A DNA stretch of 64,000 nucleotides from Actinomycetota bacterium. GTDB lineage: Bacteria; Actinomycetota; Actinomycetes; Nanopelagicales; Nanopelagicaceae. The position numbers were made by a program, and so were the translations under genes. The stretch is from assembly GCA_009726135.1 (NCBI GenBank), contig WLIQ01000001.1:1-64000 (forward strand), written 5' to 3'. Shown in pieces: positions 11,113-13,958 of the stretch. Numbering within the stretch: position 1 is the stretch's first letter; the number at the start of each line of letters is the position of its first letter. Below the pieces are notes generated by a model that made no database searches, was not told the origin of the DNA, and saw only the letters and a list, made by a program, of their open reading frames with translations.

Positions 11113-11361
11113 TTAAGCAGTTGGTTCTAGATTTTCAATCGTGAGCAAGCCTTCGTTAATCTCGCGAAGTGCGATTGAAAGTGGCTTCTCATGAACGTGT
11201 GTCTCAACAAGCGGTCCTACATATTCAAGTAGTCCTTCGCCAAGTTGTGAATAATAAGCATTGATCTGACGCGCACGCTTAGCTGCATATAAAACAAGGC
11301 TGTACTTCGAACCGGCCTTATCCAAAAGTTCATCAATAGGTGGATTTGTAATGCCATCCAT
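11113..11361 (-). CDS. rpoZ: RNA polymerase omega subunit
   Basis: [40 protein letters not shown]; position between gmk and coaBC; start trimmed from 11415. Confidence 0.93.
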
Positions 11362-11411
11362 GTCTCTACCCCGCTCAGATCTAGTGTGCTGTGAAGAATC
11401 CGTATGCGGAC

Positions 11412-12284
11412 TCAAGAGGCCAATGCTACCAGTTGTGAAACAACTCGCTCGACTGAGTCATTAACGATGACATGGTCAAAAAATGACGCTGCGGCGAGCT
11501 CCTCTTGGGCTAACTGCAACCGATGAGCCCTTCTCTCTGGATCATCAGTGCCTCTGCCTTCAAGACGGGCGACCAGCTCTTCCCATGAGGGAGGTTCAAG
11601 AAAAACTAACACTGCAGCTGGAAGGTGTGCTTTGACTTGCCGCGCGCCATCAATTTCAATCTCTAGCAAGACATTCTCGCCACGAAGTAGTGCATCTTCT
11701 ACTTCAAAGCTCGGTGTGCCATAACGATTTCCTGCAAACTCCGCCCACTCCAAAAACTCATCTTCCTTAATTCTGCGATCGAACTCTGCGACTGAAATAA
11801 AGTAATAATCAATCCCATTGAGTTCATTGGTTCGTGGTTGTCGCGTTGTTGCAGAGACGCTCACCCAAAAATCTCCTGATTTTCGAAGAAGTGCAGCGAC
11901 CGTACTTTTACCAACTCCCCCTGGGCCTGAAAGAACGAGAAGTTTTCCGGGTTTAACTGCATGTGTTGATTTCATAAATTCGTTACGCAGTTCCTTAATC
12001 TGATGACGCCCGAGCCCTGCGATTCTACGTGTTGCAGAGATATTAAATCTCTCCATCAGGTTCTGCGCTCTAACTTTTCCTACCCCTGATAGAGCTTCCA
12101 AAAGTTCTCGAACGCGCATCTTGGCTATAGCTTCATCTGTATGCGAAAGTTCTAAGACTGTGTCAATCGAATATTCACCATTTTTAATCTTCGTTTTAAT
12201 CTCGGCACGGCGCTTTCGTGATTGCGCAGCCTTGGCAAGGGCGGCGCTGCGCTGCTCGGCTGTTAACTTCGGAGGTGAACCCAT
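11412..12284 (-). CDS. gmk: Fusion of actinobacterial integration host factor (mIHF) with guanylate kinase
   Basis: N-terminus [30 protein letters not shown]...[35 protein letters not shown] (mIHF); C-terminus [19 protein letters not shown]...[23 protein letters not shown] (Gmk); no stop between them. Confidence 0.93.
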
Positions 12285-12310
12285 GCGCTTAATCTAACGC
12301 GCTTATGAGC

Positions 12311-13018
12311 TTAGTTTAAAATTTGTTCGGCGATTTCGATTGCGCGCTCACGCATCGCTGTGCTGCCCTGCGCAAAACTAGCCGTGATCGGGCGTCCAAT
12401 AACAACTAAATTTGCTCCTCTATCAATAGCTTCACGTGGCGTCATAGTTCGAGCTTGATCATCTGCGGCGGCCACATCATTAGGTCGTACACCTGGGGTA
12501 ATGATTGTTACTTCAGGGCCGAGGGCATCTCGAATAGCCAGAATCTCAAGCGGTGAACACACAATTGCCCGAGCGCCACCATGAACAGCGATCTTAGCTA
12601 AACCAACGGCTGATTCGAGAGCATGGGATTTGAATCCGATAGTTTCGACATCGGCTTCTGAAAGTGAGGTCAATATCGTAACGCCAGTTATATGTGTTGC
12701 TGGCATTGCCTCAACTGCTGCCGCCACCATCGCACTTCCGCCGCTGGCATGGACAGTTAAGAATTTTGGACGCAGTGCGCTAACAGCTCGAGCTGCCCCG
12801 GCAACCGTATGTGGGATGTCATGTAACTTTAAATCAAGAAAAATATCTGTGTCACAACTTTCGGAGATTGCACGCACACCATCACTGCCGAAAGTTAAGA
12901 AAAATTCTAGGCCCAATTTCACAACAGAAATTACCCCATCTGTTGCACTAACCCACTGCTTAGCGACATCCAAATCATTGGTATCTACTGCTAAAACTAT
13001 CGGAGCGGTCCTATTCAT
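12311..13018 (-). CDS. pyrF: Orotidine 5'-phosphate decarboxylase
   Basis: FLDLKLHDIPHTVAGAARA; ITPGVRP; VIGRPIT; start ATG 13018. Confidence 0.95.
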   Translation of the reverse strand: MNRTAPIVLAVDTNDLDVAKQWVSATDGVISVVKLGLEFFLTFGSDGVRAISESCDTDIFLDLKLHDIPHTVAGAARAVSALRPKFLTVHASGGSAMVAAAVEAMPATHITGVTILTSLSEADVETIGFKSHALESAVGLAKIAVHGGARAIVCSPLEILAIRDALGPEVTIITPGVRPNDVAAADDQARTMTPREAIDRGANLVVIGRPITASFAQGSTAMRERAIEIAEQILN

Positions 13019-13958
13019 CCTTTGCCTCATCCGGTCTATGCGCGTATCCAATTACTTGTCGCAAAGATGTGAAACCCTTTGCGATTATCAAATCCTTCAA
13101 CTCATTTTGAATAGTCATTATTGCGGTTGGATTTCCAAAACTGGCTGTTCCAATAGAAACGCCACTGGCGCCTGCGGCAATCATCTCGAGTGCGTCTCGA
13201 CCAGATGAGACACCACCCATTCCAAGAATAGGCGTTTGAGGCATAGCTGCATGGACTTGATAAATAGCTCGAACTGCGACGGGTCTAATAGCTGGGCCAG
13301 ATAAACCGCCAGTTTTGCCACCTAAATGTGGTCTCATTGTGTCAAGATTTATTACCATTCCTAATACCGTGTTAATCAAAGCTAACCCATCAGCTCCTGA
13401 ATCTACGACACCGCGTGCAATGGCTACGAGATCGGTTACATCCGGTGAAAGTTTGGCGATGATCGGCAGTTCTCCACCAATTGTTCGACGAACGCCATCG
13501 ATTACACGACGAGAAGCTTCGGGATCGCATGCAAAAACTAATCCACGGTTTTCAACGTTAGGACAAGAGATGTTGACCTCTATCGCGCTAATTCCAGAAA
13601 CAGAGCGCAGTTTACGCGCAAGAGTTGAATACTCCTCAATGGTTTCTCCGGCAATAGAAACGATGACTCGAGCCTTTTGTTCAACTAAATATGGAATATC
13701 TTTTGCCAAAAACGCATCTATACCAGGACCTTGTAAGCCAATTGAATTAAGCATTCCACTGGGAGTTTCAGCCATACGGGGGGTTGGGCGACCAGTGCGA
13801 GCTTTCATCATGACTGATTTAGTGACAACTGCGCCCATATCTTTGAGATCGAAGAATTGTGCTAATTCGCGACCAGAACTTGCACAGCCGCTTGCGGTAA
13901 AGGTCGGGGCAGGAAACCAGGCATTGCCAAGGGTTGTAGAGAAATCCAAAACCGTCAC
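13011..13958 (-). CDS. pyrD: Dihydroorotate dehydrogenase, class 1B catalytic subunit (GTG start, GTGA overlap with pyrK)
   Basis: DFSTTLGNAWFPAPTFTASGCASSG; IEVNISCPNVENRG; ILGMGGVSSGRDALEMIAAGASGVSIGTA. Confidence 0.94.
   Translation of the reverse strand: MTVLDFSTTLGNAWFPAPTFTASGCASSGRELAQFFDLKDMGAVVTKSVMMKARTGRPTPRMAETPSGMLNSIGLQGPGIDAFLAKDIPYLVEQKARVIVSIAGETIEEYSTLARKLRSVSGISAIEVNISCPNVENRGLVFACDPEASRRVIDGVRRTIGGELPIIAKLSPDVTDLVAIARGVVDSGADGLALINTVLGMVINLDTMRPHLGGKTGGLSGPAIRPVAVRAIYQVHAAMPQTPILGMGGVSSGRDALEMIAAGASGVSIGTASFGNPTAIMTIQNELKDLIIAKGFTSLRQVIGYAHRPDEAKDE

Follow-up and report, generated by a model that had tools for sequence, protein, structure and literature searches.

The window, by which we mean the whole stretch of 64,000 nucleotides of Nanopelagicaceae DNA that was analysed, carries a gene in which the nucleoid protein mIHF and guanylate kinase (Gmk) are joined in one reading frame. 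Judging from the sequence, the product is probably one bifunctional protein, composed of an N-terminal H2TH DNA-binding domain, a short flexible linker and an active guanylate kinase. The window belongs to the freshwater acI group, and the relatives with matches include Ca. Planktophila lacus, Ca. P. versatilis and Ca. Nanopelagicaceae bins.

One open reading frame holds two complete domains

The fusion gene (11412..12284) lies on the minus strand, as do all features given below. It is a single open reading frame of 290 codons plus stop that runs from 12284 to 11412, starts with ATG and has zero internal stops. Residues 5–103 (11976..12272) constitute an actinobacterial IHF (H2TH) domain, identified by alignments with 4itq and 6tob and by a match of 123.6 bits to the NCBIfam model NF041260 (actino_IHF; typed equivalog_domain, curated cut-off of 60 bits), of which positions 3–101 of 102 are covered. 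The guanylate kinase domain occupies residues 113–288 (11421..11948), where TIGR03263 (guanyl_kin) matches with 214.8 bits at an equivalog cut-off of 160.45 bits, and its fold matches that of M. tuberculosis Gmk (1s4q/1znw). Pfam places H2TH_5 at residues 33–103 and Guanylate_kin at residues 114–285. Both domains are complete, with about nine residues between them. A sequence-only reading had described a 290-residue in-frame fusion with roughly 103 N-terminal IHF residues ahead of a complete Gmk, and both profile cut-offs are indeed passed; the positions it gave for M104 (nt 11975) and for the P-loop GPGGVGKS were reproduced.

In the IHF part, the GVGKV hairpin motif of the H2TH domain (residues 67–71, 12072..12086) and the double arginine align with sIHF (4itq) and mIHF (6tob). 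The Gmk part keeps the lysine of the P-loop (residues 120–127, 11904..11927), the SxTTRxxR motif and the tyrosine and arginine residues of the substrate site, as seen in the alignment columns of the fusions and in alignments with 1znw and 4qrh. Catalytic residues are retained across the fusions, and K126 of the P-loop, R148, R151, Y160, Y188, R240, R244 and R255 are among the residues invariant in 50 of them. An AlphaFold2 model shows two confident domains (mean pLDDT 88, pTM 0.58) connected by the linker MKSTHAVKP (residues 104–112, 11949..11975), which is predicted to be flexible, with a pLDDT of 61 over residues 101–110. Given the pTM value and the loose linker, no fixed arrangement of the IHF domain relative to Gmk is predicted. 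The gene sits in the usual actinobacterial arrangement, the order carB-pyrK-pyrD-pyrF-[mihF-gmk]-rpoZ-coaBC-metK-priA being conserved; by synteny, pyrF is the upstream neighbour (12311..13051) and rpoZ the downstream neighbour (11113..11415, the longest ORF, with the real start probably inside).

The fusion recurs within the class

Within the family, the two genes are fused in about 107 of 151 sampled genomes (count from the match table), which represent eleven genera and include closed, single-contig genomes. Separate genes occur in about 35 of the 151, in genera g29, g33, g34, g36, g38 and g40, and in the remaining sampled genomes the locus is either absent or cut by a contig end. Among the Ca. 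Planktophila-type genus-mates, all 33 full matches are single stop-free frames, at identities down to 56%. On a tree built from seven flanking genes, the fused Nanopelagicaceae fall in one supported clade (100/99). The basal genera g29, g38, g33 and g36 are split; g34 and g40 are nested in the fused clade yet split as well. A single fusion that was later undone in g34 and g40 requires three changes, no more than any other account; several separate fusions inside the family are possible, and the basal position of g35, which has a long branch, is doubtful. In some g40 genomes the genes are separated by a single in-frame stop followed by a start codon (TAGATG); in the g40 loci L115, L127 and L136, mihF and gmk lie in frame with TAG directly before ATG. 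Such loci are either one substitution away from fusion or the outcome of a fresh fission.

A class-wide profile search of 297 genomes revealed two further fused groups, namely family f36 and part of family f34. In f36, whose many genera and genome sizes of 0.9–4.6 Mb suggest Microbacteriaceae, a full-length single-ORF match was obtained in about 73 of the 79 matching genera; in f34, genus g103 is fused and genus g117 is fused in part. Read directly as fusions were the ORFs of 19 f36 members plus L079, a metagenome bin assigned to f36 by sequence resemblance only, and of seven f34 members. Constraining the flank tree to group every fused row cost 1125 log units (p-AU 6e-5). Since the AU test rejects a single origin of all fusions, the fusion arose at least three times, in Nanopelagicaceae, f36 and f34. 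Four f36 loci (L180, L182, L183 and L184, of genomes G570, G575, G515 and G518) have a Gmk with no detectable IHF in front, an apparent loss of mIHF in a family that is nearly all fused.

Several candidates were discarded. Single tblastn matches suggesting fusions in Actinomycetospora, Nocardioides, Luteipulveratus and Lapillicoccus turned out to have a stop or a frame change between the two parts, the long frames upstream of gmk in the GC-rich loci L080, L082, L083 and L093 contain IHF in another frame, and the frame upstream of an apparently long Gmk in G040 (f5) is not IHF. Two small f5 genomes (L129 and L173; G040 and G315) have gmk and no detectable mIHF upstream. A phylum-wide sample of 120 genomes, mostly from other classes, yielded no stop-free fusion besides the window's own gene. 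The sequence-only reading had suspected that other actinobacteria may carry such fusions, which is borne out by at least two further independent fused lineages, and had taken mihF and gmk to be separate neighbours elsewhere, which is supported.

The tendency to fuse is specific to the mihF-gmk pair

Comparing neighbouring genes of the same operon in about 150 loci, we found a single fusion in about 960 observations of eight other pairs. By comparison, mihF and gmk are fused in 104 of 148 of those loci, a proportion that is not a rate, as the loci are enriched for the fused family, many having been retrieved with the fusion as query. The sole other case is rpoZ-coaBC in L008, minus strand (G023), where the two genes share an open frame of 481 codons that may reflect either a true fusion or an error in the frame. 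The pairs coaBC-metK, pyrD-pyrF and carB-pyrK are as close together as mihF-gmk or closer. Because equally tight pairs almost never fuse in the same loci, the within-locus contrast points to a cause specific to this pair, be it benefit or tolerance, and a mere by-product of a compact operon is disfavoured as the cause.

The IHF domain changed after fusion

At matched Gmk identity, the IHF/Gmk distance ratio is 1.3–1.5 in fused groups versus 0.96–1.17 in split genomes outside the family, the split Nanopelagicaceae being intermediate (1.11–1.27). Changes are also seen at a defined site, the third arginine of RRxRGLG, a conserved residue that is no criterion of NF041260. Outside the family, 40 of 47 split genes have it; in 78 of 78 fused Nanopelagicaceae its place is taken by A, Q, G, K, V or M, the residue in the window being A89 (12018..12020). 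The arginine is likewise absent from the fusions of f36 and of g103 in f34; it is kept in three g117 fusions, which look recent, as this genus also has split members. Some family members additionally lack the lysine of GVGK, and with both changes the affinity for DNA could be lower. Loss of the third arginine and fusion are linked by a tendency and not by a strict rule, because the arginine is also missing from the nested split genera g34 and g40, and independent losses occurred in a few other split groups. Split mIHF genes without this arginine were found in L156 and L157 (f34) and in L084–L087.

These changes raise the question whether the fusion is real but the IHF part is becoming a structural attachment to Gmk that hardly takes part in DNA binding, if at all, with the joining arising for the most part as a harmless consequence of the short distance between two genes in a compact operon. 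The faster divergence of IHF in fused groups and the missing third arginine in all long-fused groups fit such a course, as do at least four f36 genera with a Gmk and no detectable IHF domain; moreover, many genomes have just one in-frame stop between the genes, making fusion an easy mutation. However, the IHF domain is under clear purifying selection (pN/pS 0.23 among 31 near relatives), G69 and R86 are invariant across 50 fusions, and the domain has remained basic, with a net charge of about +6 to +12 and with the hairpin and double arginine kept in most fusions. Furthermore, the equally tight coaBC-metK and pyrD-pyrF pairs never fused. We regard decay into an appendage as rather unlikely. 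Still, the arginine loss, the GVGK lysine loss in some members, the split genera g34 and g40, and the f36 genera devoid of IHF are counted against the bifunctional protein that we favour, and the nested genera with separate genes indicate that the joined state is dispensable.

The fusion gene is probably expressed as one product

A TANNNT element a few nucleotides ahead of the start codon is the layout of a leaderless promoter in actinobacteria. In the window's clade, 65 of 67 loci have TANNNT 4–8 nt 5' of the start codon, compared to 8.6 in shuffled upstream sequences, and in 61 of 67 it lies at exactly 6 nt from the ATG (1.7 expected in shuffles); the layout is nearly absent in the second clade of the family (one of eight loci). 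In the window itself, the candidate -10 element TAGATT (12291..12296) is located 6 nt 5' of the ATG, at a spacing conserved in relatives. The fusion gene of this clade therefore has a putative conserved leaderless promoter of its own at the ATG. Across the upstream regions of L002–L081, TAGATT(T) 6 nt before the fusion ATG is conserved in one clade of the family and absent in the other.

The cell might make free Gmk besides the fusion, by initiation at M104 (11973..11975) or by proteolysis of the linker, so that the fusion would be a precursor or one of two products. An ATG stands at M104 in 28 of 31 near relatives, the linker is predicted to be loose, AGGAG stands 3–7 nt before an internal ATG in L007, L008, L013 and L033, and internal starts are known from leaderless genes of actinobacteria. 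Against this, conservation of M104 does not extend beyond the window's own subclade, and in about ten fused loci the 22 codons before the P-loop contain neither ATG nor GTG nor TTG. M104 is a weak candidate start in the window as well, its ATG having no Shine-Dalgarno sequence at a usable spacing. Usable Shine-Dalgarno sequences before internal starts are rare, most candidates lacking one (L013 and L103 are among the exceptions), and a -10 element at leaderless spacing precedes only 1 of 37 internal ATGs. The split gmk genes of the sister genus g40 mostly have AAGG(A) before their ATG or GTG start. With internal starts unconserved and mostly devoid of a Shine-Dalgarno sequence, independent translation of Gmk appears unlikely as a general feature, though single species may differ, and we consider a two-product outcome quite improbable. 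The sequence-only reading had already thought separate translation of Gmk unlikely, a view strengthened by these observations.

Among the 31 near relatives, junction codons vary synonymously, with H108, A109, P112 and G113 unchanged and E102-F103 likewise conserved, and pN/pS is 0.23 for IHF, 0.35 for the linker and 0.20 for Gmk. The junction is translated as protein, and both domains and the junction are under purifying selection. That a sequencing or assembly artefact conceals a stop between two normal genes draws on nothing beyond the draft state of the assembly and has a negligible chance of being right, as the same frame is open in about 107 family genomes, closed ones included, and the synonymous variation across the junction excludes a hidden stop; the in-frame fusion first read from the window's letters is real. 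In the source genome, which comprises 1.37 Mb on 77 contigs and is 84% complete, actino_IHF and Guanylate_kin each match once, in the fusion ORF, and one HU protein is encoded elsewhere. The separate mihF or gmk copy that the earlier reading had proposed to look for was not found in this 84%-complete genome, nor was any second IHF or Gmk copy.

A proposed guanylate kinase tethered to the nucleoid

In the proposed bifunctional protein, the H2TH/IHF domain would bind DNA and the Gmk domain would convert GMP to GDP. The only Gmk found in the genome would thereby be held on or near the nucleoid, and IHF and Gmk would be present in a fixed 1:1 amount. The fusion may take over from an older coupling of two adjacent cistrons; in M. 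tuberculosis, deletion of mihF is polar on gmk-rpoZ (PMC6155035), which implies co-expression of the two genes where they are not joined. A working precedent for a fused mIHF is provided by M. smegmatis, in which C-terminally tagged mIHF (PAmCherry, HaloTag) as the only copy supports growth like wild type (PMC10028186). Given that in every long-fused group IHF evolves faster than Gmk and a commonly conserved arginine is gone, the IHF part may have become less of a free nucleoid protein and more of a module for tethering to DNA. GMP, GDP or ATP might control DNA binding. The boldest version seems to us distinctly unlikely: the cell's sole GMP kinase would be anchored to the chromosome by its own DNA-binding domain, nucleoid organisation and GDP/GTP supply, perhaps including (p)ppGpp sensing, would reside in one allosteric protein, and selection would have favoured this link in at least three independent cases in Actinobacteria.

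Fusion of two genes is a sign that their products cooperate, and the recurrent joining suggests that the two jobs belong together. Gmk is an essential nucleotide kinase. For mIHF, essentiality has been reported in M. tuberculosis (PMC6155035). An essential nucleoid protein and an essential nucleotide kinase have repeatedly become joined, in a pair-specific manner and in clades to which the abundant freshwater acI actinobacteria belong. Should the link prove functional, free mIHF and Gmk are predicted to interact in split-gene genomes, and a route would lead from guanine-nucleotide supply to chromosome structure. Even with a neutral origin, the independent fusions, the nested return to split genes and the measurable changes of the DNA-binding domain afterwards offer a natural experiment. 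In the open-access literature we found no paper on an mIHF-Gmk fusion. Gmk proteins of about 300 residues must already be in databases, where the architecture is visible to anyone looking; what is new here is that the fusion recurs and is specific to this pair, that it was reversed or repeated within the fused clade, and that the IHF domain is altered.

Comparison with known systems

The closest relatives of the N-terminal part are mIHF of M. tuberculosis (Rv1388; 6tob) and sIHF of S. coelicolor (SCO1480; 4itq/6bek), with full-length homology over residues 4–104 (E-values of 1e-22 and 2e-25). They share with the fusion the H2TH hairpin, the double arginine and the operon position before gmk-rpoZ. 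Whereas mIHF and sIHF are free proteins of about 105–110 residues with RRxRGLG, the fusion has alanine in place of the third arginine and Gmk in frame behind. Actinobacterial IHF is described as a small free protein that binds, bends and compacts DNA, and at the gene level the window's IHF is not such a small free protein. For the C-terminal part, M. tuberculosis Gmk (Rv1389; 1s4q/1znw) gives the best Foldseek matches (TM-score 0.89–0.90 on target length) and shares the P-loop and the conserved GMP-site residues; the fusion differs by the added N-terminal DNA-binding domain and by GPGG instead of GPSA in the P-loop. The fusions of f36 and of g103 and g117 in f34 have the same domain order in one ORF and, where read, the same operon neighbours. 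They differ in their independent origins, in the more divergent IHF of f36 and in the third arginine kept in g117. A guanylate-kinase fold is likewise joined to other domains in eukaryotic MAGUK proteins such as PSD-95, whose GK domains are catalytically inactive scaffolds. Unlike these, the Gmk of the fusion keeps its catalytic residues, and the partner domains of MAGUK proteins are unrelated to IHF.
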